Positions 608 to 62,867 of a stretch of DNA of 64,000 bases are shown here, in pieces. The notes under the pieces were generated by a model that worked only from the letters and a program-made list of their open reading frames with translations, was not told the DNA's origin and ran no database searches. Positions within the stretch are counted from its first letter, which is position 1. Each line of letters opens with the position of its first letter. This DNA comes from Pseudanabaena sp. PCC 7367 (GTDB lineage: Bacteria > Cyanobacteriota > Cyanobacteriia > Pseudanabaenales > Pseudanabaenaceae), in the NCBI RefSeq assembly GCF_000317065.1, contig NC_019701.1, positions 1,116,001 through 1,180,000 on the forward strand, written 5' to 3'. The translations under genes were made by a program, and so were the position numbers.

Positions 608-672
608 ACTCAAAGCGGATGAAGAGATTCGAACTCTCGACATTCTCCTTGGCAAGGAGACGCTCTACCACT
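608..672. repeat. Left attachment site (attL), tRNA-Gly 3' fragment
   Basis: 65 bases identical to 19070-19134. The part from 614 onward is the 3' portion of a tRNA-Gly gene on the minus strand (T arm, anticodon arm with GCC, part of the D arm). Homology stops at 672, after the D-arm sequence, and the 5' acceptor strand is missing, so this copy cannot make a tRNA. The crossover point lies somewhere within these 65 bases. Confidence 0.9.
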
Positions 673-774: not shown

Positions 775-795
775 ATTGGTACGGAATTGGTACGG
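775..795. promoter_or_regulatory. Left arm-type integrase site, tandem ATTGGTACGG
   Basis: Two tandem copies of the 10-mer ATTGGTACGG separated by one A. The identical 21-bp block recurs in the same orientation at 19027-19047, inside the other end of the element. Paired tandem decamers inside both ends are what arm-type binding sites of a lambda-like integrase look like; this role is inferred. The left copy abuts the integrase ATG at 797, so binding there could also repress integrase expression. Confidence 0.6.
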
Positions 796-796
796 G

Positions 797-1939
797 ATGA
801 AACCTCCGAAAGGCAGTGTAGCTATAGAGAACAGGGATAATCGCATACGTTTACGCTGGAGTTTTAACGGTGAGCGCTATTGTTTATCACTTGGATTAAA
901 CTATACTCAAATAAATCTTAAAGCCGCTCAACAAGTTGCTAACCAGATTGAGCTAGACATACTAAGTGGAAACTTTGATTTATCTCTAAACAAGTATAAG
1001 CCCGCAAAGATAAGTTTTGCTAATAAATCAAAGCTTTCTAAAAATCCAAATCTCTTAGAGGTTTGGGATGTATGGGTTAATAGCCTTAAATTAACATCCA
1101 GGACTAAAAACAGGCATTACATGCAAATTAGAGGCCTGATTCGTAAGGCAAACCCAAAGCTAAAAGATCCCAAGTGGTTTACCAAAATTGATACCTTATC
1201 GCCAGAGATCTGGAATTCAAGGCTAAGTTACTTAAGTTCATGCCTGGATTGGTGTATTGATAAAGGATATGCAGCAGAGAACCCATACAAAGGACTTAAG
1301 CGCAGAAAATCAGCCACCAAAGCAGCTAAACCTTTCACCAAACAAGAGATCAACTCAATTATTCTGGCCTTCAGGACTGACCAATTCTGCCCCCAATCAT
1401 CAAGCTATAAGCATAGCTACTATGCAGACTATGTTGAATTTTTATTTCTAACTGGTTGTAGGCCTGCTGAGGCGATCGGGCTCCAGCGCAAGCATATTGA
1501 CCTTGAGCGCAATGAGATAGTCATATGCTCAGTATTGGCTAGAGGTGATAATGGCGAAACTAGCTCTAATAAACGAGTCCGCAAAGAGACTAAAACAGGC
1601 AATATCCGCTACTTGACTATGACTGAGCGATTAAGACAAATCATGGAATCAAGGTGCGCCGATCTACAGCCCGATTGCCTTGTTTTTAGGTCACCTAAGG
1701 GCTTAGCGATCAATGACAATAATTTTACTCGTAGACAATGGAAACCAGTTCTAGAGGGGTTAGGCATTGAGTATCGGAAGCCATACACAACCAGGCATAC
1801 TATGGCCTCGATCGCAATTGAACAGGGCATACCCTTAACGGGGGTAGCATATTTACTTGGCCATAAAGATACAACAATGGTTATGCGTACCTACGGCCAT
1901 ATGATTAACCGTCCCAGCTTGCCTGAGATAGATATTTAG
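797..1939 (+). CDS. int: Site-specific tyrosine recombinase (integrase)
   Basis: About 380 residues. The N-terminus (RIRLRWSFNGERYCLSLGL) looks like the arm-DNA-binding domain of cyanobacterial phage-type integrases. The C-terminal catalytic domain shows the family boxes: TGCRPAEAIGL with the first Arg, TTRHTMAS with the second Arg-His, LLGHKD with the late His, and YGHM with the nucleophilic Tyr near the C-terminus. The residue usually His two before the second Arg is Tyr, which is tolerated in this family. It should catalyse integration and excision at the tRNA-Gly site. The frame is open from a TTG at 776, but I chose ATG 797: the 21 bases before it recur in non-coding DNA at the far end, so they are probably a binding site rather than coding sequence. 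Confidence 0.9.
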   Translation: MKPPKGSVAIENRDNRIRLRWSFNGERYCLSLGLNYTQINLKAAQQVANQIELDILSGNFDLSLNKYKPAKISFANKSKLSKNPNLLEVWDVWVNSLKLTSRTKNRHYMQIRGLIRKANPKLKDPKWFTKIDTLSPEIWNSRLSYLSSCLDWCIDKGYAAENPYKGLKRRKSATKAAKPFTKQEINSIILAFRTDQFCPQSSSYKHSYYADYVEFLFLTGCRPAEAIGLQRKHIDLERNEIVICSVLARGDNGETSSNKRVRKETKTGNIRYLTMTERLRQIMESRCADLQPDCLVFRSPKGLAINDNNFTRRQWKPVLEGLGIEYRKPYTTRHTMASIAIEQGIPLTGVAYLLGHKDTTMVMRTYGHMINRPSLPEIDI

Positions 1940-2094: not shown

Positions 2095-2931
2095 ATGCAA
2101 GTAGACTCTGAGCTTGAACTCAAGGCAATTAATGCACTGCAGTATGACCTTATCAGACCTAACCCAAAACTGAAAAATTTAAACATTGCACAAAAACATC
2201 AACTTTTATTAAACAAACATAAATGGAGTGCGATCACCCACTGGGTAGCTTTTATTCGATATTCTTGGTTAATTAATATAGATAAGCCCCCTGAAGATGA
2301 GCTTCATAGCGATCAAGAGCAATTTTCAAGAATGTTGATATCAGCTCTTGATGTTTGTGGACATCTCTATGCAGAGTTTTACTGGAACAAAGAAAACCCA
2401 CCCTATAAGAGCTATGCTCACTGGTGGTTAGGTTATGTATGGGAAATAAAACGAGCAGAAGCGAGAGCTGCTCTTTACTCTAATAAAAAGAGCTTAAAGC
2501 GCAAAGGCAAGATTGAGCCTATGCGAAAGGAAGTCATTGGAGTACTTCGAAACCGAAAAATACCTGAGGGATACAAGGATAATCCTAATTTAAAGCATCA
2601 CTTCGACCTATATCAGAAGGCGATTGAAATACTAAATAGAAATAACGAGAGCTCAGGAGGCTTGAGAAGGCTAGGTTGGGATCATTATTTAAGTAGTTAT
2701 ACCGCTCACATCCAGTATTTGCATAATAATCCTGAATTAAAATCTGTTTTCAAAATAAATGATCGTTTGTTCTACTCAGATGTGAGCAAGAAAGTAGAGC
2801 CCTTAACTAGAGACCTAACAGGGATTGAGAAGACTTTCTATGATCATTTCATCGCTCCAGATGCACCTAAATGTCGGCTAGATGAAACTTTCCTCGTTTT
2901 AGGTACTCAGCTTCAAATTCCCATCGACTAA
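2095..2931 (+). CDS. Unknown protein of the element, between integrase and primase
   Basis: 278 residues that I do not recognise. The protein is rich in Lys, Asn, Trp and Tyr, looks alpha-helical, and has no signal peptide or membrane segment. An aromatic patch (FYWNKENPPYKSYAHWWLGYVWEIKRAEARAAL) is followed by a very basic stretch (NKKSLKRKGKIEP), which would suit nucleic-acid binding. It lies 155 bases after int and 243 before the primase-helicase gene, all on the same strand, so a role in replication, excision or control of the element is plausible. The ATG at 2095 has only a weak ribosome-binding site. Base composition is AT-rich like its neighbours. No function is claimed. Confidence 0.75.
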   Translation: MQVDSELELKAINALQYDLIRPNPKLKNLNIAQKHQLLLNKHKWSAITHWVAFIRYSWLINIDKPPEDELHSDQEQFSRMLISALDVCGHLYAEFYWNKENPPYKSYAHWWLGYVWEIKRAEARAALYSNKKSLKRKGKIEPMRKEVIGVLRNRKIPEGYKDNPNLKHHFDLYQKAIEILNRNNESSGGLRRLGWDHYLSSYTAHIQYLHNNPELKSVFKINDRLFYSDVSKKVEPLTRDLTGIEKTFYDHFIAPDAPKCRLDETFLVLGTQLQIPID

Positions 2932-3174: not shown

Positions 3175-5400
3175 ATGATTAAAGCAAGTACTCTTGCAGA
3201 AGAGCGTCCCAGATCTGATGCCAATACCAAGCCAAGTACGATCAGGCCAGAAATTTCTAAAATAATTGCTGAGCTTCAATTTTTGAGCCTCCCAGCACTG
3301 CCAGTAGCGCCAGGGCATAAGAACCCTAGTTTCATCAATTCTGCTGGTGAGATTGAAAATATCAAGCATTCTGAATACCACGATCGGATGCCTACCGAAG
3401 ATGAGCTAAGGGAGTGGTTCTCCCATGCCGATGTAGGTATTGGAGCCCTGGGATCTATTAGGTACAGATGGCTCGACCTGGATGCTAAGCATTTTGATTC
3501 ACCAGACAAATGTGAAGCTGCCTTCAAGGAGCTTATCCCTAACTACGAGAATTACTGGGTTGAGAGAACGCAAAGCGGTGGATGCAGAGTATTGGTTGAT
3601 TGTGGTGATAATCCACCTGACTTTACTAATTTCAGTCTGAGCCCTGACGGAGAACATGTTGGCGAACTAATTGGTGTAGGCAGATTCGCTGTTCTAGCTC
3701 CTACTGTTGGTCAAAATGGTCGGTATGAAAAGATTACTGATAGTTACGAACCAATACTGTTTGATGAACTTGAAATCTACCAATACAGTGGTAAAACTGG
3801 AAAAAGCAAACAGATCGATAATGTCAAAAGTTCTAATCTGGTCGATCTGGATAACCAAAATAACGAGCCTGAAAAATTAATATCCCATGCATCTATCAAT
3901 ATTAGTGGAAATAGCAGAGTAGTCCCTCTAATAGAGATCATTTCCGAGAATGCAAAAAAAGTGATTGCTGGAGTTGATATTAGTAATGATCGATCTGGTT
4001 CGCTAGCAGCCCTATTGAATGAACTGGTTGGTTGGCAGAACTTCTGTCATAGGCATGGTATCCCGCATTCTAATGATTTGAGTTATCTTGCTCATGAGGC
4101 GGGTTCCAAGCTAGGTATTGACTCTGATCGAATTAACCGAATCATCAAAACCATTGATCCTAGTTGCATGCCAAGCTGCCACTATCAAGGTGGTGATGAT
4201 GCCTGTTGGACGAAGCTCAACAAGTATGGATATTATCCAAAATTGTATGATGATGCCAGTCCTACATCCACCAGATCTAACTCTTCTGAACTTGCCAAAA
4301 ACTACGCTGAGATCGAATATGCCCTTAGTGGTCGGCTGCGATATAACGAGTTAAAGTCTGCAATTGAACTGGATGGGCAGCTATTTGAAGAGGATTCGGC
4401 ACGATTGTGGTTGGCCAATACTCTGGGAGTTACATTAAGTCAGAGCGACGCATGGAACAGCATTACCTCTATTGCTAAGAATAACTCCTATCATCCTGTC
4501 CAAGAGTATTTCAATCTGTTGGCAACTGAAGATATTGATCCAGATCAAGTCATCAATGGACTCGCAGTTAAGCTGTTTGGTGTTGTCGATCCCATTTACT
4601 ATATTTATCTTAAAAGATGGCTAATTGGGGTCGTGGCCAGAGTGTTTGACCCAGGTTGCAAGATGGATACGATCCTTATACTTCAGGGCAAGGAAGGGTT
4701 AGGTAAGTCAATGTTATTCGCCAAAATGTGTAAATATCCTGAATGGTTCTGTGATGACATGGGCAGCATCAAAGACAAGGATCAATTACTCAAGATGCAT
4801 CATGCTCTGATCACTGAGTGGAGTGAGGCGGACTCATTGTTAGCAAAAAATGACAGCTCAAGCATGAAAGCATTTGTCTCCTGCCGTGAGGATAATATTC
4901 GCAAACCTTATGCTAGAGAGAGTAAGCTATACAAGCGCAGAGGTGTGATTGTCGGCACCACAAATCGAAGCGACTTTCTAGGCGATGAAGCAACTGGCGA
5001 TCGCCGATTCTGGGTTATTCCCATTGAAAAGCCTATTGATCTAGAATTTGTCAGAGCAAACAGAGATCTAATCTGGGCAGCAGCCGTCAAGTTCTATCGG
5101 CAGGGTGAGCAGTGGTGGCTCACAAGCGAGGAACAGCAGCTCTCTCACGAGTTTAACAGTGGTTACAGAGCTGTGCACCCTTGGCTGCATGAGGTTGATA
5201 AATTTGTGGCTGATAAAACCGAGCTAACTCAATCAGATCTGGATCGCTGCCTCAAAAGGATTAAGGAAGAAACTGGCACCCACACACCTCAGGATGTTAA
5301 GGCAATCCGTAAATGCATCAGAAATTTGGGTTTTAGTTCCAAAAATCGCAGGGTTGATGGCAAACAACAGACAGTGTGGGTAAAAGAGGTAGAACCTTGA
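3175..5400 (+). CDS. Primase-helicase: N-terminal Prim-Pol-like domain and VapE-type ATPase
   Basis: 741 residues. The N-terminal part (about 15-190) resembles a bifunctional primase/polymerase domain: WLDLDAK supplies the metal-binding DxD and is followed by SGGCRVLVDC, where the usual His after SGG is Arg, so primase activity may be altered. A middle domain (about 260-350) has a cluster CMPSCHYQGGDDACW that might bind zinc. The C-terminal domain (about 440-690) is a VapE/D5-like superfamily 3 ATPase: Walker A QGKEGLGKSM near 503-512, then ITEWSEAD, then GTTNRSDFLGDEATGDRRFW. Such proteins initiate replication of satellites, phages and integrative plasmids. The stop codon is directly followed by an iteron-like repeat field, as expected for an initiator and its origin. 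Translation may be controlled by the upstream hairpin. Confidence 0.85.
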   Translation: MIKASTLAEERPRSDANTKPSTIRPEISKIIAELQFLSLPALPVAPGHKNPSFINSAGEIENIKHSEYHDRMPTEDELREWFSHADVGIGALGSIRYRWLDLDAKHFDSPDKCEAAFKELIPNYENYWVERTQSGGCRVLVDCGDNPPDFTNFSLSPDGEHVGELIGVGRFAVLAPTVGQNGRYEKITDSYEPILFDELEIYQYSGKTGKSKQIDNVKSSNLVDLDNQNNEPEKLISHASINISGNSRVVPLIEIISENAKKVIAGVDISNDRSGSLAALLNELVGWQNFCHRHGIPHSNDLSYLAHEAGSKLGIDSDRINRIIKTIDPSCMPSCHYQGGDDACWTKLNKYGYYPKLYDDASPTSTRSNSSELAKNYAEIEYALSGRLRYNELKSAIELDGQLFEEDSARLWLANTLGVTLSQSDAWNSITSIAKNNSYHPVQEYFNLLATEDIDPDQVINGLAVKLFGVVDPIYYIYLKRWLIGVVARVFDPGCKMDTILILQGKEGLGKSMLFAKMCKYPEWFCDDMGSIKDKDQLLKMHHALITEWSEADSLLAKNDSSSMKAFVSCREDNIRKPYARESKLYKRRGVIVGTTNRSDFLGDEATGDRRFWVIPIEKPIDLEFVRANRDLIWAAAVKFYRQGEQWWLTSEEQQLSHEFNSGYRAVHPWLHEVDKFVADKTELTQSDLDRCLKRIKEETGTHTPQDVKAIRKCIRNLGFSSKNRRVDGKQQTVWVKEVEP

Positions 5401-5405
5401 CCCAA

Positions 5406-5876
5406 TGCTAGGGGTGCTAGACCAGTGCTAGGGGTAATTCAACAATACCCCTAGCGGCTGAAAACGATACTGGCTCTGGTTTCCCACAGTATGCTAGGTG
5501 TGCTAGGGGTATTTTAAGAAAACTAGGATATTCCTTAGTAGTGTGGGGTGTGTGGCCAGCGTGCAGTAAAAGTTGACGATCTTTGCCCTAGTATCCCTAG
5601 CACTTACTCGAAAGCTATGCGCAGTAAGGGATATACGCTTTTCCCACTGCCCTAGCATACCCCTAGCAGTGACCTAGCACTATGTGGGTAATTTCCCTCG
5701 CAAGCATTACTGGGCAAAAGTTCCAACATATAAATAGGCTGCTGTTTCTGCTAGGGCAGAATTCAAAACTATGCTCTAGTAGCCCACCAATTTAATTTTG
5801 ATTGGTATATCCCGATCGAGCAGGGTATTGCTTAACAATCGCTACCCTTCGTAACTTCATTGGTCAGGTACTAGGG
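5406..5876. repeat. Iteron-like field, consensus TGCTAGGGGT; putative replication origin
   Basis: At least a dozen copies of a 7-10 bp motif TGCTAGG(GGT) lie between the primase-helicase and hsdR. Plus-orientation copies start at 5406, 5415, 5426, 5492, 5501 and 5749. Inverted copies lie near 5447, 5586, 5594, 5650, 5659 and 5672, with a weaker one near 5868. Several pairs are spaced 8-11 bases apart, one helical turn. Direct copies dominate the left half and inverted copies the right. This is the architecture of iteron origins bound by an initiator encoded next door; the binding is inferred. The stretch also separates two convergent genes and holds no coding frame. Confidence 0.65.
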
Positions 5877-5968
5877 TAAATACTTTGCACAGATATTGAT
5901 CACTATGGGTAGTCCCTAGAGTTGGCGTAAGATCTGATTGCCGCTTCATTAACCTGGTTGCGATCGCC

Positions 5969-8900
5969 CTAAGCAGTATTGTAGTCAGCATCAACTGGCT
6001 TATTGAATGAACGTACTATTTCAACAATATTATCTGCGTCGATATCAGTGCTAAACAGCCCATCCAGGCCATACTGGTGCAGGTTGGTAAATGGTGGCTC
6101 ATATAGCTGCGCTGGGTCCATTACCCCATGCTGGGTTAAGTAATCGATGATAGTTTCGACGAAGCGGATCTGAGCTGCGCTGAAGTTACCAGTTTGTAAG
6201 TAACGTGAGAAAGCTTGCTTAGCTGCACTGCGATCCAGACCAACTAACTTACGAATAAATAGCTTGAGGCTCCGCTCTTCGCCATAAACTTCATTAAACC
6301 GCTCCTGGCTTTCAATCACCTCTGGCTTGAATAGCATATCTTCGAGGGCGGCTAGATCGGCCTCAGTGAGGGGTAAATTGCGCTTAATCTTGGCGATCGC
6401 CGTGTGGTTATCATTTTCTCTGATATAGGTTTCAACCTTCTTCTTATACTGTTCTCGGCTAAACCCAGTTGATTTGGTAGGCACGTCTACCAGTTCAACC
6501 TCGCCCATCTGATCAGCAAAATCGGTGTAGACAATCTCCTGCTGTTGCTTGTCGATAAATTTGATCAGTTCCCGCAGGTTTAACCTAACCTGTTCGATCA
6601 TCGGTGGGGTAACATCGATCCACCATGATTCATTTTGAACTTCGGTAATTAAGGCTAATTGTGTCTTAACCATAGGTATATCCCGCTTTTGTTCGAGCCG
6701 AGCCAGGAGATCGCGGATCTTGTCACGGAGCCGCTCGAAATCGTTGGTCTGGTTAATCAGTGCCAGTTGAGTTCGCAAGCAAAGTAGATCGAATTCCTTG
6801 GCTAGGTGGTTTTCACTGGGTAGGCCATTGGGCAACTTGGCCAGGCGATCGACTATTATTTCGGTATCTTCATCGCTGAGGTTATTCCAGCGATCGCGGT
6901 TGGCAAACTCTTCTACATACTCTAACTGGCGGCGCACCATAAAGTTATGCTGGGGCATGGAATCAACATGCAGGTGCAAGTCATTAAGCAGGTTCTCGCG
7001 TAGTTCCTGGTTGCCGGGGATTGGATCGCCATTTGCATCAGTCTGGCTTAGCAGTTGAGCTAGTGCTAACCTTTGTTTAACCAGCTTAGTAGTAAGGGTT
7101 TCCGGCAATCGCTGCTGTTTGTCGGCAATGTCCTGGTTGAAGAAGTCGAAATTGCCACAAAGGTCAAATACAAAAAACTCAGTTTTATTCCTGTTAACCC
7201 CAAATAGATCGGGGCAGAGGCGAGTACCCCGACCGATCATCTGGTTGAATTTGACCCGCGAATATACAGGCTTGAAAAATACCAGGTTAACTACTTCCGG
7301 CACATCCACGCCAGTATCAAGCATATCGACTGAGACAGCGATCGTCGGTTGCTTTTTGGAATCGCTGAATTCATCTAATAAGCTCTGGGCATATTTATCA
7401 TGACTATCGATAATTCGGGCAAATTCCCCATTGTAGTGGGGGTAGTTGGCATCAAAACAATCCACAATAAACTCGGCATGTCTATGGTTGCGGGCAAAAA
7501 TAATTGTCTTGCCAAGCCGATCGCCACCTTCCACCTTTAGCCCCTGCTCCATTAATAGCTCCAGGGCTTGCTCGACCGTGTTTTTATTAAATAGCCACTG
7601 ATTGATTGCAGCGGCATTGACCTGATCGGGGACTTCGCCCGTATCTTCATCGCGGAATTTGGCTTCATACTCTAGTTGCTCCGCTGGCGAGAGGTCGCTG
7701 AATTTAACGCCAGAGCGCAGAAATTTAAACGGTACGTCCACACCCAGAGCAGGCACCAGGTAACCATCAGCGATCGCATCACCCAGTTCATAGGCAAAGG
7801 TGGGTACACCCTGTTCCAGGGCAAATACTTCATAGGTGTCCCGATCGACCTCATCCCTGGGCGTGGCAGTCAGGCCAATCAGCAGGGCATCGAAATATTC
7901 AAACAGGGCTTTGTATTTCTGATATATCGATCGGTGGGCTTCATCAACAATCACCAGATCGAAATAGCCAGAGCCAAACAATCGCTCGCCCCCTTCAATC
8001 CGATCGATCGCATTGAACATGCTCGGATAGGTAGCTAAAATGACGTTAGCGGCCTCAATATCAGCTCTGTTAGTCTTTTTAAGGGTAGTGGCGGTAACGG
8101 TGGGTAGATGCCTTCTAAAGGCGCGTTTGGCCTGGGTGATCAGGGAATTACGATCGGCCAGGAATAGCACCCGTTTGACCCAGTTGGCACGTTTGAGCAA
8201 ATCGACCAGGGCGATCGCGGTGCGGGTTTTGCCTGTGCCAGTGGCCATTACCAGCAGGGCTTTACGCATTTTCTTTACGTCGAAGCTCTTGGCAATACTG
8301 CTGATCGCTTCCTTTTGGTAGCTGCGGTTAATGATCTCATCATTGGTTTGCAGCAGGTGCAGGCGCTTGCGGTGGGTGCGGCGAAAAATAATCGATTCTA
8401 ATTCTTCCTGGCGCAGGAACCCCTGGATCTGACGGGGTGGGTAGCTTTTGTCGTCCCAGATATAGGTGCTATAGCCATTGGTATAAAACATCACCGGACG
8501 CTGATCATATTTAGCCTCCAGGCAATTGGCATAGAGCTTTACCTGCTGCTTGCCTCGATCGGGGCTATGGGTAGTGCGCTTGGCTTCGATCACAGCCAGG
8601 GGTTTACCATTGTCGCCCCACAGCACATAGTCGGCGTAACCCTTCCCTGTTTCGTTGGGCATACCTTCTAGTTCGACTTCGCGGTTTTCGTCGGTCAGCA
8701 GCCAACCTGCTTCTTTCAGCAACACATCGATCAAATAGACGCGGGTGTCGGCTTCGTTATAGTCATGAACATCAGCGATCGCCTGATTTTGCGCCTTGAG
8801 CCTGGCAATTTCCGCCTTTACTCTTTCTAACTCCGCTTCGGTTTGTTGCTGCCGCTGCTCGGCGATCTGCCGCATGCGCTCGGTCTGATCCAGTTGTTGC

Positions 8901-9382
8901 TCTAGTTGCTCTAGCTGTTGCTGGCTCAGTTCATCCACCCCGGTGGCAGTGGGCTGAGGAATCAGATCCCGATTAAACTTAATCTCGCCCAGTTGCCTGC
9001 CATTCTCACCATAGTACCGACCAAGCCAGTAGGAAAAATGAAACAACTCCTGCACCAGTTGCAACGCATCCCGCTCGCCCACATTGCGCGGGTCATGCAC
9101 CGCCATATTACCCACCTTCAGGATTGTGCGTACCTTGGCAAACAAATCTTGAGAAAGGTTATTCTTAAACGTCGGCTCATGCACCAAAGACCCCAACCTG
9201 GTCTCATAGGGCATTTGCAAATAGGGATCATTGGCATATAACCACAAAACCGCCTGCTCCAGGGCAAACCGCGCATAGAAACAACTCGCCCTTGGCGCGG
9301 CAAAAACCAACTCCTCCGCCTTGGTGAAGTGATCGTATAGCTTGGGGAAACTGGGTTTGAGAAAGTCAAAGTTAGATGCCAT
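5969..9382 (-). CDS. hsdR: Type I restriction enzyme, motor and nuclease subunit HsdR
   Basis: 1137 residues, a normal HsdR length. The N-terminal 140 residues form a DUF4145-like helical domain (FYARFALEQAVLWLY) followed by a Gln/Glu-rich coiled coil (about 155-205). The endonuclease domain has YADYVLWGDNGKPLAVIEAKR, the PD-(D/E)xK core with Asp near 249 and ExK near 265. Superfamily 2 motor motifs follow: ATGTGKTRTA (Walker A, about 380), VDEAHRS (about 479), GLTATPRDE and the late GRGTRL. The complex translocates DNA and cuts unmethylated invaders. It is the last gene of hsdM-hsdS-hsdR, 38 bp after hsdS. It carries HIP1 octamers, so it looks adapted to a cyanobacterial host. Confidence 0.95.
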   Translation of the reverse strand: MASNFDFLKPSFPKLYDHFTKAEELVFAAPRASCFYARFALEQAVLWLYANDPYLQMPYETRLGSLVHEPTFKNNLSQDLFAKVRTILKVGNMAVHDPRNVGERDALQLVQELFHFSYWLGRYYGENGRQLGEIKFNRDLIPQPTATGVDELSQQQLEQLEQQLDQTERMRQIAEQRQQQTEAELERVKAEIARLKAQNQAIADVHDYNEADTRVYLIDVLLKEAGWLLTDENREVELEGMPNETGKGYADYVLWGDNGKPLAVIEAKRTTHSPDRGKQQVKLYANCLEAKYDQRPVMFYTNGYSTYIWDDKSYPPRQIQGFLRQEELESIIFRRTHRKRLHLLQTNDEIINRSYQKEAISSIAKSFDVKKMRKALLVMATGTGKTRTAIALVDLLKRANWVKRVLFLADRNSLITQAKRAFRRHLPTVTATTLKKTNRADIEAANVILATYPSMFNAIDRIEGGERLFGSGYFDLVIVDEAHRSIYQKYKALFEYFDALLIGLTATPRDEVDRDTYEVFALEQGVPTFAYELGDAIADGYLVPALGVDVPFKFLRSGVKFSDLSPAEQLEYEAKFRDEDTGEVPDQVNAAAINQWLFNKNTVEQALELLMEQGLKVEGGDRLGKTIIFARNHRHAEFIVDCFDANYPHYNGEFARIIDSHDKYAQSLLDEFSDSKKQPTIAVSVDMLDTGVDVPEVVNLVFFKPVYSRVKFNQMIGRGTRLCPDLFGVNRNKTEFFVFDLCGNFDFFNQDIADKQQRLPETLTTKLVKQRLALAQLLSQTDANGDPIPGNQELRENLLNDLHLHVDSMPQHNFMVRRQLEYVEEFANRDRWNNLSDEDTEIIVDRLAKLPNGLPSENHLAKEFDLLCLRTQLALINQTNDFERLRDKIRDLLARLEQKRDIPMVKTQLALITEVQNESWWIDVTPPMIEQVRLNLRELIKFIDKQQQEIVYTDFADQMGEVELVDVPTKSTGFSREQYKKKVETYIRENDNHTAIAKIKRNLPLTEADLAALEDMLFKPEVIESQERFNEVYGEERSLKLFIRKLVGLDRSAAKQAFSRYLQTGNFSAAQIRFVETIIDYLTQHGVMDPAQLYEPPFTNLHQYGLDGLFSTDIDADNIVEIVRSFNKPVDADYNTA

Positions 9383-9420: not shown

Positions 9421-10614
9421 CTATAGTTCGCCTCGGAAGGCTCTTTGGAGGAGGGAGTTAAATAGTTCCTGTAGTTTTATATTAGAAAGAATTGCCTTAT
9501 TATTGAGCTGCTTCTGATTTTCACAAAGTATTTTCCATCGATTCTGATAATTTAATGGAGGAAGAATTACAGATAATTCACGAATATTAGTTAAGCTAAG
9601 ATTGGCTCTAGCGGATTCTACTGCTTGCCCTAAAAGTGATTTCTGAATAGACTGATTCAAAAGTTGATTTAAAAGAAAAACAGGTTTGCAAACTTCTCTA
9701 TTGAGAGACACCACTGCAACTGCTTGGTTGATATTGGCGGGAACGACTTCACTAGGAACTAAGCATGTTCTACCTACAGATGCACCCACGAGATTTATTA
9801 AGATGTCATCTGGAGAAAGTTTTGAACGTTTCAGTTTGTCATGAAATTCCTGAGAAACGAATTTTGGGCTTGAAATATCAATTTGCCCCCAAAGCACATT
9901 TTCACTTGTTACAAAATTAACACCTTCTAATTCATAACTATATCCTTGCCACTTGGGTGATTCGCCTTTGGTTATCCTAGATGCAATTGCACCAATCTGA
10001 ACTACTTCCCAGCCTTTAGGATTAGTAACCGGATCGCCGAACATATCGAGGAAAGCCGATCGCAACAGTTCCTCAGTCAGGGCGATCGCTTCCTTCCGCT
10101 TCCGCCGCACTGCATCAGCCTGGTCAAGGATCGCGGCTATTCGTTTTTGTTCTTCGATCGGTGGTAATGGTGCTTTTAGATTTTTTATACAGCCCAGACT
10201 AAGATTAGAAATTGTTGCAGTAACTTTTGAGCCTGATATCTGTTCTGATGCATCTCTTGAGTTTAGCCAGTAACTGAAGTAGAACGGATCAACATTCTCT
10301 TCAAGCCTTATAATGGCAACAGCTTGATTACAGTTCATAGAGGTAATATCAGGTGGAACTACAGCAGTTCGCCCGATTGTCCCAGCGATTGAAATTAATA
10401 CATCTCTGGGTCTAATCCTAGAACGTGACAGTGCCTTATCTGTATTGGCATCAATATAGAGAATATCGCTAGTATCTAGCATTCCCTCTTGGATATTATT
10501 GACTCTTAAGAACGGTATTCCAGAATCTGTAAACTTGTACCCTATTGATGTTGGCGTAGTACCTTTTGTTACTGTTTCAGCAATAGAGCCAACTGTTACG
10601 CGTTGCCATTTCAT
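9421..10614 (-). CDS. hsdS: Type I restriction-modification specificity subunit HsdS
   Basis: 397 residues in the standard two-half layout. Target-recognition domain 1 is about residues 1-145. The conserved central spacer PLPPIEEQKRIAAILDQADAVRRKRKEAI (about 152-180) forms the helical arm, domain 2 is about 200-340, and the second helical arm ends the protein (LLQRAFRGEL). It sets the bipartite DNA target for both methylation and cleavage. The start overlaps the hsdM stop by ATGA (10611-10614), which implies translational coupling. The two recognition domains are AT-rich while the spacer is GC-rich like hsdM, the usual sign of domain shuffling. The target sequence cannot be predicted here. 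Confidence 0.93.
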   Translation of the reverse strand: MKWQRVTVGSIAETVTKGTTPTSIGYKFTDSGIPFLRVNNIQEGMLDTSDILYIDANTDKALSRSRIRPRDVLISIAGTIGRTAVVPPDITSMNCNQAVAIIRLEENVDPFYFSYWLNSRDASEQISGSKVTATISNLSLGCIKNLKAPLPPIEEQKRIAAILDQADAVRRKRKEAIALTEELLRSAFLDMFGDPVTNPKGWEVVQIGAIASRITKGESPKWQGYSYELEGVNFVTSENVLWGQIDISSPKFVSQEFHDKLKRSKLSPDDILINLVGASVGRTCLVPSEVVPANINQAVAVVSLNREVCKPVFLLNQLLNQSIQKSLLGQAVESARANLSLTNIRELSVILPPLNYQNRWKILCENQKQLNNKAILSNIKLQELFNSLLQRAFRGEL

Positions 10615-12095
10615 CGCAGTAACCCCTCCAACACATCCAAATCCCCACGAATCTCATCCTCCAGGCTTCGCAGCTTCTGCAAAATCACCCTCGGCGGGTC
10701 ATACTCCACCTCCTCATACTCAATCTCCTTATACCGACTAATGGAAAGATCATACCCATTCGCCTTAATCTCCTCCCTCGGTACAAAAAAAGCCCGATCC
10801 TTGCGATCAGTATCCTTCGCCGCATCCCGCGCCTGCCACCGCGCCAGAATGTCAGGAATGTCATTTTCTTCGATCGATTGCCGCTTATCATCCAACGAAA
10901 ACCCATCCGCCTGCATATCATAAAACCAGACAAAATCAGTGCCGCCCGACTTCACCCCCACCTTAGTAAACAAAACGATCGCCGTCGAAACCCCCGCATA
11001 GGGCTTAAACACCCCCGAAGGCATCGCAATCACCCCATCCAGCTTATGCTCCTCCACCAGCGATTTACGCATACCCTGATGCGCCTTAGACGACCCGAAC
11101 AACACCCCATCAGGCACGATCGCCGCCGCCCGTCCCCCCTTCTTCAGCAGCCGCAGGAATAAAGCAATAAACAATAACTCAGTCTTCGTCGTCTTGATCA
11201 TTTGGGTTAGGTCTTTGGCGATCGTAGACTTCTCGATCGACCCCTTAAACGGTGGATTAGCCAGCACCAGCGTAAACGCCTCCTCCACCCCCGCATGATC
11301 CTCCGATAACGAATCCCGCGCCTCGATCTTGGGCGATTCGATCCCATGCAGCATCAAATTCATACTGCCAATCCGCAGCATAGTCGCATCGAAGTCGAAC
11401 CCGTGAAACATCTCCGATTGATAATGCTCCAGATTCCCCGGCGCATTGATCACCTGGTTACCATCTTCATCCTTGAGATCGCGCAAATATTCCGCCGCCG
11501 CCACCAGAAAGCCAGCCGTACCACAGGCTGGATCGCAAATTAAATCCATTGGCTTAGGAGCCGTTAAATCCACCATCAGCTTAATAATGTGCCTGGGTGT
11601 CCTAAACTGCCCATTCGTCCCCGCCGTGCTCAGCTTCGATAGCATGTACTCATACAGATCGCCTTTGGTGTCCCGATCCTCCATCGGGATATTGTCGATC
11701 TGATGCACCACACTATCCAGCAATGCCGCCGACGGGATCATAAATACTGCATCCTGCATGTGCTTCGCATAGGCACTAGTGCCATCCGTGCCGCCCAATT
11801 GCTTAATAAATGGAAATGCCTCATCCCGCACGATCGCCAGCATCGCCTCAGCATCATTCAGGTTCTTGAAATGTGACCAGCGGCATTGCTGCTTGTCCGC
11901 CGGAAACATCGCATCCTTAACACCACCACCCAACCGTTGCGCCCGCTTCTCCTTCACCAACTCCAGGTCGTCCAGCCGCTTAATAAATAGCAAATATGAG
12001 ATCTGCTCGATCACCGACAGCGGGTTGCTGATCCCATTATTCCAAAACGAAGTCCAGAGGCGATCGACCTTGGACTTAAGCTCACCTGTTATCAT
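10611..12095 (-). CDS. hsdM: Type I restriction-modification methyltransferase subunit HsdM
   Basis: 494 residues. It has an N-terminal helical HsdM domain (LWTSFWNNGISNPLSVIEQISYLLFIKRL) and then an adenine-N6 methyltransferase. DPACGTAGFLVAA (about 190) is the S-adenosylmethionine motif, and ANPPF (about 280) is the N-P-P-F catalytic motif IV. It methylates adenine in the host copies of the target selected by HsdS, protecting the chromosome. It is the first gene of the operon, so the promoter should lie in 12096-12291, which is AT-rich. Coding DNA here is markedly GC-richer than the upstream helicase gene. Confidence 0.95.
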   Translation of the reverse strand: MITGELKSKVDRLWTSFWNNGISNPLSVIEQISYLLFIKRLDDLELVKEKRAQRLGGGVKDAMFPADKQQCRWSHFKNLNDAEAMLAIVRDEAFPFIKQLGGTDGTSAYAKHMQDAVFMIPSAALLDSVVHQIDNIPMEDRDTKGDLYEYMLSKLSTAGTNGQFRTPRHIIKLMVDLTAPKPMDLICDPACGTAGFLVAAAEYLRDLKDEDGNQVINAPGNLEHYQSEMFHGFDFDATMLRIGSMNLMLHGIESPKIEARDSLSEDHAGVEEAFTLVLANPPFKGSIEKSTIAKDLTQMIKTTKTELLFIALFLRLLKKGGRAAAIVPDGVLFGSSKAHQGMRKSLVEEHKLDGVIAMPSGVFKPYAGVSTAIVLFTKVGVKSGGTDFVWFYDMQADGFSLDDKRQSIEENDIPDILARWQARDAAKDTDRKDRAFFVPREEIKANGYDLSISRYKEIEYEEVEYDPPRVILQKLRSLEDEIRGDLDVLEGLLR

Positions 12096-12291: not shown

Positions 12292-15200
12292 TTAGATGTT
12301 TTTGTAGTAGGCTGGCGCTTTCTTTAATTTGCCATCTGTAACAATGTAAGCTTCAATAACATTTTCATGGTTATCAAGAAATTGGATCTCAACTCCATCT
12401 ACTGTCTCCAACCAGCTATATTTATCCAAAAAACCAGGTATCGAAAAATCTGAAGTAAAGTAAGTGCGCCGCCACTGTTTAGCCCGATCGTTCCATTCGT
12501 AATGCTCAGCTTTCAGCAAATCTTTTACGAATAATACACCATCATTGTCTTTATCATCCTGATTGCCTACTCTTACTTCAGTACACGAAAAAAGTGGATA
12601 TTCCGACCAGTCAATTTCAGTAATTGAGTCACGCCCTAGCAACTCAGTAAGGAAAGGGGACTGTTTACTTGAATCAGTAATAATGAATAAATGCTCTACC
12701 GCCCGGGTTAGCGCCACATAGAAGAGACGACGCTCATCTTCAATTACCTTCTCTAAACTGTCGCCAAAAATACGGCTGAAGATCCAATTAGGGTGGATTA
12801 ATGGGTAAGACTTTGCAACGCAATCGATCAAAATTACTATATCATTCTGAGCACCTTTATATTTATGAATGGTTGAGGCGGATATCATATTCCTGCGATC
12901 TTCCGGTAGCTTTAAGCGGATTAAATACAAAAAAGAATCAAGTTTGTTGCTAGACTTTAATTCCCAGCTCAATCTATTTGTGCGGCTGAGTAGAGTAACC
13001 TTCTTATTTTGATCGATAGCTTTACCAACTATCCTTAATATCGATTGGGTGAATTCGTCTCCCGCTCTAAATTTCTCAGACTCCCCGGTAGAAGGCTTAA
13101 ATTTAGACAAGTCTACAATCTCAACTTTTCCTACTTCTTGCTTATTGGCTCTGGCTGGCTCCCCTTTACCTTGCATCAATTTATTGCCGATATCGACAAT
13201 ACTTTCGTGTGAGCGGTAATTAGTTGATATGTGGAGCTGTTGCGACGGTTCGAACAACTCAGTAAATTTCTTATAGAATTCGAGATCGGAACCTGCGAAA
13301 CCATTAATAGCTTGCCAATCATCACCCACGCAGAAGAATTCAACTTCAGGATTATGTTTCCTTATAGCAATGGTCAAACGATAAAAAAGATCGGAAAAGT
13401 CCTGATACTCATCAATGAATATATACCTGAGTTTCTTTAGATCCCGCGAACCAGATTTGCTCTCGAATACTGTCTGACCTGAGTCTATTTTCTCCGCAGC
13501 TCGCTGCATTAGTCCGTCGAAATCTTCTTCACCTTGCTCTTTAATCGCTTCTAAATAAGACTCATAAAATACTTTGCCCAGGTGAATAAAGCGCTCCTCT
13601 GCCTCAGTTTCACATTTGTGCTGATAAATCAAATCGTTCAATTGATCCGGCGTGTATGTTAACTTCCTGGATCGCTTAATGAAGTCGCCCATAGCTTTGG
13701 TAAATTTATCTATGGCTCGTTTTTTTATTTTTTTCCAAATCTCATCTTCAGTTAAGCAGTCATTACAAGCTATTCCGGCACCTTCAAGTAATGACTTAAG
13801 CCAATCTCGAAAAGCTTGGACATTCCCAGCCCTCAATAAGTCTGGATTAAGTTCTAATAGTTGCCAGTCAGTCTTACCCTGCCAGTATTCTCTTTTTCTA
13901 TCCGACATCGCATCATAGTCGGGATTACCTTGTAAGCCAAAATATTCGATTACAATACCCTTATTTGTAAGGGTAAAATCAGGGCAGTAACTAGTGTCAC
14001 CCCTGTCACCCCGAGTATGGTTATGTTCATATTTATACCCAATATTATGTTCAAATAAGAAATTCGCAATAGTCTTCTCGCCAAAAGACTTGTAGTTTGT
14101 ACCATCCCATCCCAGGCAGGGCAATGAGCGACGGTATCGCAACATTTCATCTTTGCTCATTAGATAGCCGCCAGAAATTATGCGTTCCCAGTCAGAATTG
14201 AAGCGGGTCATCATTATGCGGCGAATTTCTTCATAGTATTCAGAATCTTTTAAATATCTATCTATGACTTCCTGGATAGCTCGACTTTGTTTCTCATCGG
14301 CATCAGGGATGTCATATATTAGACTTTCTCTGGGGTTAACAATCCGATAAGCTAAAGAATGAAAGGTCATTGGATGAGAGCTGTTTGACTCTAGATGCTT
14401 ATCTAGGCGCTTTTTAATTTCTCTAGCTGCTTCTTTATTAAAAGCTAACAGCAATATCTCATCGGCCGAGATTCCGCAGTGCTTTTGTAAGAAGATCGCC
14501 CTATTGACTAGCGTTGCTGTTTTACCACTGCCAGCCCGCGCGACCACTTGTATATGGCCTTCGACAGCCCCAATAGCTCGAGCCTGCTCTAAGTCGGGCG
14601 TATTGGGCTTATCCGACTTCAAATTAGTTGCAATCCACTTTTGAACAAAGATCGACTTTCTCTCCTGGTATTCGTCCTCACCTATAATCCCAGCGCATTT
14701 GAGGTTATAGAAAAAGTCAGCACTACTGAAATCTTGGTCAAAGATATACTTTAAGTCTTCAAACAAAGGTTTACTTAATCGTTCAACTTCTTCGCGCCGA
14801 CGTATATTTTCAAGCTCCTGCTTATGAGACGATATTGCTATATTAATTTTCTTTATTTCTGACAAATTCAGGGGCGGGAAGAACTCTATAAAGGACTGAA
14901 TGAAAGATTCAATATTGTACTCTTTCCTAATACGTCTACTGCGACCATTCTCTGGGTTGATCAACCTATAACCCATAAAATCTACTCTAATTGAGACAAG
15001 TAAATTACATAAATAATTTATAGACACAACTCTGCCTTTCTCAAGGTTTCCGCTTGCAACTATTTTGTTCGTTTTCGTATCAATTAGTTTTATCCTGTTC
15101 TTGGGGAAGTAATTTTCTTTTACATTTAAGATAACTTCCCTGCCCTTCATAAGTTCCCAAAGGCTATCAATTCCATAAATAGCTTCATAAAAATCTTTAA

Positions 15201-15312
15201 TACTATTTATGTGGTTTCCTATAAATTCCATCTCTAAGACAATCTTATCTAATATATTCAAGCAATCCTCTACTCTGGCGAAATAGCAATAACATGCCCA
15301 AGCGGATAACAA
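12292..15312 (-). CDS. UvrD/HelD-like superfamily 1 helicase with embedded nuclease-like segment
   Basis: About 1000 residues. A poorly conserved N-terminal region (1-240) precedes the helicase core: ARAGSGKTAT (Walker A, about 261), LLLAFNKEAAREI, FIDEYQDFS (motif II, about 635), VGDDWQAINGF, STNYRSHESI and VALTRAVEHLFI. Between motifs Ia and II sits an insert with YCPDFTL and IVIEYFG (about 440-460), resembling the PD-(D/E)xK-type insert of helicase IV relatives. Such enzymes act in recombination repair or phage defence. It lies beside hsdMSR on the same strand with 196 bp between. It is AT-rich and I found no GCGATCGC in it, unlike its neighbours, so it may be a later acquisition. The start is uncertain: TTG 15312 keeps the longest frame, ATG 15231 is the first Met. 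Confidence 0.85.
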   Translation of the reverse strand: MLSAWACYCYFARVEDCLNILDKIVLEMEFIGNHINSIKDFYEAIYGIDSLWELMKGREVILNVKENYFPKNRIKLIDTKTNKIVASGNLEKGRVVSINYLCNLLVSIRVDFMGYRLINPENGRSRRIRKEYNIESFIQSFIEFFPPLNLSEIKKINIAISSHKQELENIRRREEVERLSKPLFEDLKYIFDQDFSSADFFYNLKCAGIIGEDEYQERKSIFVQKWIATNLKSDKPNTPDLEQARAIGAVEGHIQVVARAGSGKTATLVNRAIFLQKHCGISADEILLLAFNKEAAREIKKRLDKHLESNSSHPMTFHSLAYRIVNPRESLIYDIPDADEKQSRAIQEVIDRYLKDSEYYEEIRRIMMTRFNSDWERIISGGYLMSKDEMLRYRRSLPCLGWDGTNYKSFGEKTIANFLFEHNIGYKYEHNHTRGDRGDTSYCPDFTLTNKGIVIEYFGLQGNPDYDAMSDRKREYWQGKTDWQLLELNPDLLRAGNVQAFRDWLKSLLEGAGIACNDCLTEDEIWKKIKKRAIDKFTKAMGDFIKRSRKLTYTPDQLNDLIYQHKCETEAEERFIHLGKVFYESYLEAIKEQGEEDFDGLMQRAAEKIDSGQTVFESKSGSRDLKKLRYIFIDEYQDFSDLFYRLTIAIRKHNPEVEFFCVGDDWQAINGFAGSDLEFYKKFTELFEPSQQLHISTNYRSHESIVDIGNKLMQGKGEPARANKQEVGKVEIVDLSKFKPSTGESEKFRAGDEFTQSILRIVGKAIDQNKKVTLLSRTNRLSWELKSSNKLDSFLYLIRLKLPEDRRNMISASTIHKYKGAQNDIVILIDCVAKSYPLIHPNWIFSRIFGDSLEKVIEDERRLFYVALTRAVEHLFIITDSSKQSPFLTELLGRDSITEIDWSEYPLFSCTEVRVGNQDDKDNDGVLFVKDLLKAEHYEWNDRAKQWRRTYFTSDFSIPGFLDKYSWLETVDGVEIQFLDNHENVIEAYIVTDGKLKKAPAYYKNI

Positions 15313-17109: not shown

Positions 17110-17979
17110 ATGGCACGCACCAAGTTTGCACCCAACCCAGAAGTAGCCAAACAGAAGCAAGCTGATGCATTGACTAAGCTTGAGCTGGGTATCCAGGAGT
17201 TGCTTGAATCTGGTGATTGGCAGAAATACTTGCGCACCCAGTCCAGATTTCACAATTACTCGTTCAATAACTGCATGTTGATTATGGCGCAGTGCCCACA
17301 TGCGACCCGGGTGGCCGGGTTTCATACCTGGAAGTCAATGAACCGCAGAGTCAGGAAGGGTGAGAAGGGTATTCGCATCCTGGCACCGATCATCCGTAAG
17401 CTTGATGATGAAATTGGCGATCCTGATGCCAGCACCAGGGCTTTAGTTGGCTTCAGGACTGTTTCGGTATTCGATATTTCGCAGACTGAAGGCGAAGATT
17501 TACCTGAGGTTGAAACATCGCTGGCTGGTGGTGACGCTGGGCTGTGGGAGGCATTGGAGTTGTTCAGTATCGATAATGGTGTACCGGTTTACCTGGAGGC
17601 CAGTTTGAGCGGTGCCAGAGGTTATTGCCAGTATGACGACACTGGTAAGCCGATCAAGATCGCCGTTGACCCTACATTGTCAGCACTGCATAAAGCCAAG
17701 ACATTGGCTCACGAGATTGGTCATAGTTTGCTGCATAGTTGCACTGAATATCTGGGGCATTCAACTAGGTCTGAAAAAGAGTTGGAGGCTGAGTCAGTCG
17801 CTTTTGTGGTGCTTGACCATTTTGGTCTAGATACCAGCAATTACAGCTTTAGCTACATTTGCTCCTGGCAGCAGGGTAAGGATGCGATCGCTAACCTGAA
17901 AGCTTCGGGTCAGCGCATCCAGCAGGCGGCTAGCCAGATCATTGATTGGGTTGAAGGCAGTTTTGCGACAGGGGCGTAG
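17110..17979 (+). CDS. ArdC-like protein: ssDNA-binding N-terminus and HExxH metallopeptidase
   Basis: 289 residues. The N-terminal half (about 15-120) matches the ArdC N-terminal fold seen in plasmid antirestriction proteins: YSFNNCMLIMAQCPHATRVAGFHTWKSMNRRVRKGEKGI, which binds single-stranded DNA. The C-terminal half carries AHEIGHSLLH, a zinc-protease HExxH motif of the ImmA/IrrE type, with ELEAESVAFVV supplying the downstream Glu. ArdC of plasmid pSa protects incoming DNA from type I enzymes, so antirestriction is the likely role, inferred by family. It shares the element with a type I system. Clear ribosome-binding site (AAGGAG). It is the second gene of a module whose genes are separated by terminator-like hairpins. 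Confidence 0.85.
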   Translation: MARTKFAPNPEVAKQKQADALTKLELGIQELLESGDWQKYLRTQSRFHNYSFNNCMLIMAQCPHATRVAGFHTWKSMNRRVRKGEKGIRILAPIIRKLDDEIGDPDASTRALVGFRTVSVFDISQTEGEDLPEVETSLAGGDAGLWEALELFSIDNGVPVYLEASLSGARGYCQYDDTGKPIKIAVDPTLSALHKAKTLAHEIGHSLLHSCTEYLGHSTRSEKELEAESVAFVVLDHFGLDTSNYSFSYICSWQQGKDAIANLKASGQRIQQAASQIIDWVEGSFATGA

Positions 17980-19026: not shown

Positions 19027-19047
19027 ATTGGTACGGAATTGGTACGG
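19027..19047. promoter_or_regulatory. Right arm-type integrase site
   Basis: Exact 21-bp copy of 775-795, in the same orientation: tandem ATTGGTACGG. It lies 22 bases inside the right attachment repeat and outside any gene. An integrase or excision-factor site is inferred. Confidence 0.6.
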
Positions 19048-19069: not shown

Positions 19070-19134
19070 ACTCAAAGCGGATGAAGAGATTCGAACTCTC
19101 GACATTCTCCTTGGCAAGGAGACGCTCTACCACT
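19070..19134. repeat. Right attachment site (attR), part of the intact tRNA-Gly gene
   Basis: 65 bases identical to 608-672. Here the repeat continues into the 5' part of the tRNA (19135-19147), so the host tRNA gene is restored by sequence carried on the element. Confidence 0.9.
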
Positions 19135-19147
19135 GAGCTACATCCGC
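19076..19147 (-). tRNA. tRNA-Gly (anticodon GCC)
   Basis: Read on the minus strand, it starts GCGGATGTAGCTCAG and ends in CATCCGC plus T as discriminator base. The 7-bp acceptor stem pairs fully, the D arm is AGCTCAGTGGTAGAGC, the anticodon loop is TTGCCAA (GCC), and the T arm is GAGAGTTCGAATCTC. CCA is not encoded. The gene is the insertion target of the element to its left and remains intact. Confidence 0.95.
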
Positions 19148-26870: not shown

Positions 26871-26950
26871 AACTAATTCAGTAAAGCAGTGATCAGGAAA
26901 TCAGAAGTTGCTGAGCCGAGCTAAAGTTTAGGGCGGTGTCTCTGGCTAAA

Positions 26951-26978
26951 TCCTTAATCCTTAATCCTTAATCCTTAA
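26951..26978. repeat. Heptanucleotide tandem repeat, TCCTTAA x4
   Basis: Four perfect head-to-tail copies of TCCTTAA in the gap between the ATP synthase beta and epsilon genes. Short heptamer repeats of this sort are known from filamentous cyanobacteria; a role is unknown. Confidence 0.9.
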
Positions 26979-27280
26979 GTGATGCATCTGCTGGTTATTG
27001 AGTATTTATTTAAGTAACTTATTTAAGTAGTAAAGCTGAGAATTAACGATCTTATCGATCGCACCGCCCTTAATTTTAAATATGCCCTATATCTATATAG
27101 AGCTAACCGTTCTATTTTTGATAACTCTGACTAAGATCAGTTTTGAAAGCCTTTATTTATTTCGATCTAGACGGTTGATTATGGTTAGTTATGTACCACC
27201 CATCTACCAACTGTCGATGATCAGAAATAACTAGCTAAGTTTATAAGTTTAATTGTCACTCTTAAGATCGAGTAGTATTT

Positions 27281-62036: not shown

Positions 62037-62867
62037 TCAGCAGAGACCTTGGCTATAGCCCTCAGGGAAGCGGGTGCCATTGATTTTAGCCTTGGTTAAA
62101 ACCACCCCCATTAAATTAGTGCGGCTCAAATCCGCCTGGGTCAGATCGGTCATGCTCAAATCCGCACCCATTAAATCTGCACCCATCAGATCAACTCCAT
62201 GCAAATTAGCACCAATTAAGTTGGCACCGATCAAATTAACTCGATTTAAGTTTGCTTCACTCAGATTAGCGCCGGTCAAATTTGCACCGATTAAATCAGC
62301 CCCCGCCAGGATTGTGATGCTTAAATTCGCTTTGCTTAAATCCACCTTGCCCATATTTGCCCGCCCTAAGTCAGCACCACTAAAGTTAGCTTCGCTGAGG
62401 TTAGCGCGACTGAAATCGGCAGCAACTAGCTTAGCCTGACTCAGGTTTGCTTGATTCAGGTTGGCTAAACTAAACCGCGCCAGGGTGAGATTGGCATATT
62501 TGAGATCGGCCTGGTTGAGTTTTGCGCCCCTTAGATCGGCACTCCTTAAATCAGCATCGTAGAGGTTGGCACCAATTAAGTTGGCCATGCTGAGAAAAGC
62601 ATCACTAAGATCGGCTCCTTTTAGATCGGCAGCATGTAAATTAGTGCTACTGAGATCGGCTCCCTTTAATTTTGCCTTGCTCAAATTTGCTTCATGCAGG
62701 TCTGCGCCACGCAGATTCGCCATACTTAGATCAATCTTGCGTAATTTAGCGCCACTTAAACTAGCCATGGTCAGATCTATGCCACGCAGCTCGGGATTGG
62801 CTTCCCGCCAGTTATTCCAATCTTCTACCCCTCGTGCCAATAAAGCTAAATGTTGGTTATCTGCCAT
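62037..62867 (-). CDS. Pentapeptide-repeat protein
   Basis: 276 residues. About residues 40-265 are continuous A(D/N)LXX repeats (ADLSSTNLHAADLKGADLSD, GANLIGANLHGVDLMGADL), forming a long right-handed beta helix. No signal peptide or enzymatic domain. Ribosome-binding site GGAG ten bases before the ATG. Its start region differs from the partial pentapeptide gene at the window's left end. Function unknown; some relatives mimic DNA. Confidence 0.9.
   Translation of the reverse strand: MADNQHLALLARGVEDWNNWREANPELRGIDLTMASLSGAKLRKIDLSMANLRGADLHEANLSKAKLKGADLSSTNLHAADLKGADLSDAFLSMANLIGANLYDADLRSADLRGAKLNQADLKYANLTLARFSLANLNQANLSQAKLVAADFSRANLSEANFSGADLGRANMGKVDLSKANLSITILAGADLIGANLTGANLSEANLNRVNLIGANLIGANLHGVDLMGADLMGADLSMTDLTQADLSRTNLMGVVLTKAKINGTRFPEGYSQGLC

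Follow-up and report, generated by a model that had tools for sequence, protein, structure and literature searches.

A putative iteron origin behind a primase-helicase gene in a tRNA-Gly island of Pseudanabaena sp. PCC 7367, and similar layouts at related loci

Replication proteins that bind repeats placed just behind their own genes are known from several mobile elements. In the SaPIs, the iterons follow the rep gene directly and are recognised by the C-terminal domain of Rep; the isolated C-terminal domain of the SCCmec protein Cch2 binds its downstream repeats (PMC7581432). PICI origins are located immediately 3' of rep (PMC6092414). The minimal replicon of the crenarchaeal plasmid pRN1 is reported to include the gene for the orf904 replication protein together with 166 bp downstream (PMC4234260). 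Among marine cyanobacteria, tycheposons are described as tRNA-flanked islands of 4-200 kb with a tyrosine recombinase (PMC10872708). Here we describe a repeat array behind a primase-helicase gene in a 64,000-nucleotide stretch of the Pseudanabaena sp. PCC 7367 chromosome, the whole of which we call the window. We conclude that these repeats are very probably the iteron origin of an integrated 18.46-kb element, bound and unwound by the element's own fused primase-helicase, and that the element may be capable of autonomous replication.

An integrated element at tRNA-Gly(GCC)

The original prediction placed the repeats in an element residing in the chromosome, and the borders of such an element proved to be clear. 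It is integrated in tRNA-Gly(GCC), carries a tyrosine integrase, and is bounded by 65-bp direct repeats, identical at 608 and 19070, which correspond to the 3' part of the tRNA gene. Its features are as follows.

608-672, minus strand: attL, the 65-bp repeat with the 3' part of tRNA-Gly(GCC), identical to 19070-19134; Rfam tRNA match at 622-677 (partial tRNA)
776-795, plus strand: candidate integrase arm site TTGGTACGGAATTGGTACGG, left copy, overlapping the int start, with an exact second copy at 19028
776-1939, plus strand: tyrosine integrase with an Arm-DNA-bind_2 domain (Pfam PF00589, PF12167); start codon not certain
2095-2931, plus strand: 278-aa protein with two weak relatives in 386 genomes
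3175-5400, plus strand: primase-polymerase/VapE-type helicase fusion with a C-terminal winged helix (PF05272, E 4e-66; PHROG primase match; AF2 model; PriRep1 match)
5969-9382, minus strand: type I restriction subunit HsdR, cargo (PADLOC REase_I, E 2e-184)
9421-10614, minus strand: type I specificity subunit HsdS, cargo (domain and PADLOC scans)
10611-12095, minus strand: type I methyltransferase HsdM, cargo (domain and PADLOC scans)
12292-15312, minus strand: UvrD-like helicase, cargo (domain scan)
17110-17979, plus strand: ArdC-N / IrrE-type protease-like antirestriction protein (domain scan)
19028-19047, plus strand: candidate integrase arm site TTGGTACGGAATTGGTACGG, right copy, an exact repeat of the left copy
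19070-19134, minus strand: attR repeat, inside the intact tRNA-Gly(GCC) at 19076-19147

The 20-bp TTGGTACGGAATTGGTACGG had no further copy within 3 mismatches in the window, and the pair, with one member near each end of the element, is a good candidate for the arm sites of the integrase. If TTGGTACGGAATTGGTACGG has this role, the sites of the integrase would be separate from the iterons. The 278-aa protein gave no Pfam or PHROG match. The UvrD-like helicase, a protein of 1006 aa that adjoins the type I genes and whose UvrD motifs are split by approximately residues 340-560, is possibly a further defence gene. No repressor, xis, phage-interference or packaging genes were recognised among the larger ORFs scanned.

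The repeat array and the proposed initiator

The repeats occupy the gap between the stop codon of the helicase gene (plus strand, 5400) and that of hsdR (minus strand, 5969), so that the flanking genes are convergent, as originally predicted. The helicase ORF ends 5 bp ahead of the first iteron, leaving the array outside the coding sequence. Within the gap, 12 sites with a CTAG core match TGCTAGGGGT at 7 or more of 10 positions, in agreement with the earlier count of at least a dozen copies, and are arranged in two sets with outlying members.

5406-5878, no strand assigned: iteron array and proposed origin, 12 TGCTAGGGGT-type sites (motif count and 8-mer cluster scan)
5406-5510: left iteron set, plus-strand sites at 5406, 5415 (weak), 5426, 5492 and 5501, minus-strand site at 5447 (CTAG-core site listing)
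5584-5679: right iteron set, minus-strand sites at 5584, 5593, 5648, 5659 and 5670 (CTAG-core site listing)
5749-5878, plus strand: outlying sites at 5749 and 5869, next to the most unstable 50 bp in the gap, which begin at 5760

The copies had been described as direct on the left and inverted on the right, and this is correct for most of them, but the site at 5447 is inverted on the left, and those at 5749 and 5869 are direct on the right. Within the groups the sites are 9 or 11 bp apart, about one helical turn, as had also been proposed.

The enrichment of the motif at this location was evaluated in several ways. Seven copies of TGCTAGGGGT with at most one mismatch lie in 5406-5668 and four elsewhere in the window, while shuffled sequence yielded 3.2 such copies for the whole window, and 7 at the largest; four of the iterons are perfect copies. 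Within the element, CTAG cores number 16 in the 568-bp gap, compared with 15 in the 4.8 kb and 37 in the 13.2 kb that flank it. The 12 copies of TGCTAGGG at 5406-5756 form the top 8-mer cluster of the window, with a log10 p of about -15.5, and eight Markov-simulated elements reached -7.5 at most; these cluster p-values are approximate and refer to a first-order Markov background. When the motif search proposed with the original prediction was run over the 4.886-Mb genome, the GCTAGGGG octamer was found 110 times on both strands, with 5 of these octamers located in the 261 bp from 5407 to 5667, where about 0.006 are expected. Pairs of the form GCTAGGG-N(1-30)-GCTAGGG occurred three times in the genome, twice in this gap. 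The same 8-mer scan detected other strong clusters in the window, ATACTTAA in 8 copies at 26950-27083 and AGATTGGC in 11 copies at 62458-62823.

The instability of the DNA between the two iteron sets reached only the 60th percentile, and no AT-rich melting region was seen there. Scans of the gap found no DnaA box, no sigma-70-like promoter and no terminator-like site with a T run. These scans bear on two other explanations of the repeats. The sites are clustered, partly inverted and operator-like, and might be where a regulatory or partition protein of the element binds, instead of being an origin; however, a gap between two gene ends contains no annotated promoter to regulate, none of the sigma-70 type was detected, and no partition or repressor domain was found among the larger proteins scanned. 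Alternatively, the inverted copies could form hairpins that end transcription of both convergent genes, as might be suggested by a perfect inverted pair of 10 bp, its arms 9 nt apart, at 5427-5455, just past the helicase stop codon. Arguing against hairpins, the gap lacks a terminator-like site of the kind scanned for, and within groups the sites mostly point the same way and are spaced by about a helical turn. Evidence from related loci, presented below, weighs further on both explanations.

The properties of the helicase protein fit the origin interpretation. The PHROG primase match covers residues 41-199. An AF2 model of residues 356-741, the C-terminal half, had a pLDDT of 84 and a pTM of 0.78, and its C-terminus is modelled as helix-helix-helix-strand-strand, a winged helix. 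When all 741 aa were modelled, the primase half came out poorly (mean pLDDT 60.7), and the primase assignment therefore rests on the PHROG match and on the annotation of the matched plasmid genes. By fold, the closest solved structure is SaPI5 PriRep1 with dsDNA (Z 27.5 over 362 residues, C-terminus included), followed by phage NrS-1 PrimPol (Z 14.8). The PriRep1 entry was also the only PDB match by sequence, at 17-20% identity. With its PF05272 domain, modelled winged helix and structural match to PriRep1, the protein is predicted to be an initiator helicase with a C-terminal dsDNA-binding domain. A peptide-pattern scan of genome contigs with the helicase returned no relative; the patterns are lineage-specific.

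Arrays behind and inside related helicase genes

Loci encoding relatives of the helicase were taken from 386 cyanobacterial genomes (43 with a match, that of the window included), PLSDB, phage records and IMG/VR, and for each locus we asked where the strongest repeat cluster was positioned, using a zone that reaches from 30 bp before to 500 bp past the winged-helix end of the helicase. The best cluster was in this zone, at the 3' end of the helicase domain, in 102 of 128 loci. By comparison, of 756 corresponding control zones, each placed behind another long ORF of these loci, 15 contained the top cluster. Once the set had been dereplicated at 70% identity, a level beyond which the sampled loci are not independent, the count was 38 of 57 (26 of 44 from genomes, plasmids and phage records, and 12 of 13 from viral contigs); 21 of the 57 dereplicated initiators, about a third, had no strong adjacent cluster. 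The relatives carry 56 distinct repeat 8-mers, some of which are variants of one another, and the sequence differs between lineages, with a TAGGG core common to the repeats of the window and to some phage and plasmid repeats. Over these 56 8-mers, iterons in the same direction are mainly 8-9 or 11-12 bp apart, and the spacings between iterons in opposite directions are scattered. Similarity between iterons tracks similarity between initiators (Mantel p 0.001), and in a partial Mantel test the winged helix did not stand out as the only determinant of specificity (p 0.11). In one of the loci with such an array, a 3.1-kb Microcystis plasmid, twelve AGGTAGGG-type sites lie behind the VapE gene. 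Since a hypothetical ORF is all that is annotated besides this gene, the VapE protein is likely to be the replication protein of this plasmid.

Some of the related arrays are embedded in the coding sequence itself. Among 103 strong arrays, 29 were wholly within the helicase ORF and 69 outside it, and the nested arrays follow the winged helix and precede additional C-terminal residues that show conservation within subgroups. Nested arrays encode repeat-like peptides at the 3' end of the helicase ORF. The loci concerned are:

L031, L033-L037, L039, L041-L044, L048-L050, L066-L068
L070-L072, L080, L084, L088, L097, L100, L103-L105, L116

A precedent for such nesting is the origin located inside the lambda O gene.

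Different repeats in a similar layout, behind the same gene in most relatives and beside a product that resembles the SaPI5 initiator, support the origin originally predicted. The recurrence of this place with changing repeat sequences also argues against sites for a regulator or partition protein, which we consider improbable. Termination hairpins are more improbable still, given the scattered spacings of oppositely directed sites in relatives and the 29 arrays within coding sequence. As for the wider pattern, we lean slightly towards a widespread origin cassette of cyanobacterial phages, plasmids and islands, so far undescribed, in which the helicase gene and its 3' iterons travel as a unit, the repeat sequence changes by lineage, and the layout is kept (groups of 2-4 sites, 9-12 bp, alternating direction), with about a quarter of arrays nested in the part of the initiator coding sequence that links the winged helix to a further C-terminal segment. 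A literature search of limited extent returned no paper describing this helicase-iteron pattern for cyanobacteria.

The islands closest to the element by integrase present a different picture. The nearest integrases, in L045 (61% identical) and L038 (59%), are both at loci with VapE genes, and no clear array was found behind either gene, nor in the family members L184 and L185 when read in the helicase direction; L185 and L045 contain a few degenerate AGTCAA-type copies. L038, an island at tRNA-Pro, has a GGGACAC repeat cluster at about 6549-6811, approximately 5 kb upstream of the VapE stop codon, which is possibly its origin or another control site. The related integrases of L038, L045 and the window are near different tRNA genes (Pro, Val and Gly) and close to VapE-type helicases, which suggests one island family with shifting target sites. 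The lack of a clear array in these integrative relatives, together with the large cargo of the element, raises the possibility that the origin is now a remnant, and that the element is fixed and replicated passively with the chromosome. This possibility overlaps with the origin interpretation, because the latter concerns the purpose of the repeats and not their present firing. We regard a remnant as unlikely, though clearly less so than the two explanations above, since the helicase ORF and the integrase are intact, the two att repeats match at all 65 bp, and four iterons are perfect copies.

Proposed replication and comparison with known systems

Reports on SaPI Rep and Cch2 (PMC7581432) and on PICI origins (PMC6092414) suggest how the iteron origin might work. 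The element would replicate after excision, perhaps only then, or while integrated. The PrimPol-VapE protein would use its C-terminal winged helix to bind the iterons, could assemble on the left and right sets as one or two helicase hexamers, and would melt nearby DNA. The fused primase domain would then prime synthesis, with the host polymerase taking over.

Such an origin gives a cyanobacterial defence island a candidate mechanism of replication, through which its restriction system might also be mobilised. We find the wider pattern across relatives more interesting than the single origin. Similar layouts, with arrays 3' of or inside the initiator gene and no requirement for an AT-rich spacer, are present in cyanobacterial plasmids, phages and islands, and the pattern offers a sequence-only route to candidate origins in many uncharacterised mobile elements. 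The matched initiator-iteron pairs provide a natural series for working out recognition rules.

The small cyanobacterial plasmids p2-NIES88 and pAL20115c and phage S-LBS1 encode the same helicase family and have an iteron array directly behind the gene or, as in pAL20115c, inside its coding sequence; they are free replicons, whereas the element is integrated and its iteron sequences differ from theirs. The resemblance of the element to tycheposons, as described in PMC10872708, lies in a tyrosine recombinase element at a tRNA gene within the 4-200 kb range, and is one of description, not of sequence. The likeness to pRN1, from an unrelated host, is drawn from the reported gene layout (PMC4234260), not from protein comparison. 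Cch2 is proposed to be a helicase that loads itself, and its C-terminal domain binds direct repeats located past its gene (PMC7581432); by analogy, the protein of the element may bind the repeats behind its own gene. However, Cch2 is paired with a separate polymerase-type primase and has three 5-nt iterons, whereas the element has a fused primase-helicase and about 12 sites.

The closest resemblance is to the SaPI/PICI group, represented by SaPI5 PriRep1. Both combine a primase and a helicase (sometimes fused) with a C-terminal DNA-binding domain, and both are tyrosine-integrase islands in which two sets of iterons directly follow the gene (PMC6092414, PMC7581432). Of the features that define PICIs, the element has the tyrosine integrase with a specific attachment site and, by anatomy, pri-rep followed by ori; it lacks the AT-rich region that the two iteron sets of a PICI flank. 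It also differs in its type I restriction cargo, in its cyanobacterial host, in having 17-20% identity to PriRep1, and in that the scan of its larger ORFs recognised no genes for a repressor, phage interference or packaging. We do not file the element as a PICI, and regard its array as a probable origin of the SaPI/PICI working type, a kind already known, in a cyanobacterial tRNA-Gly island.
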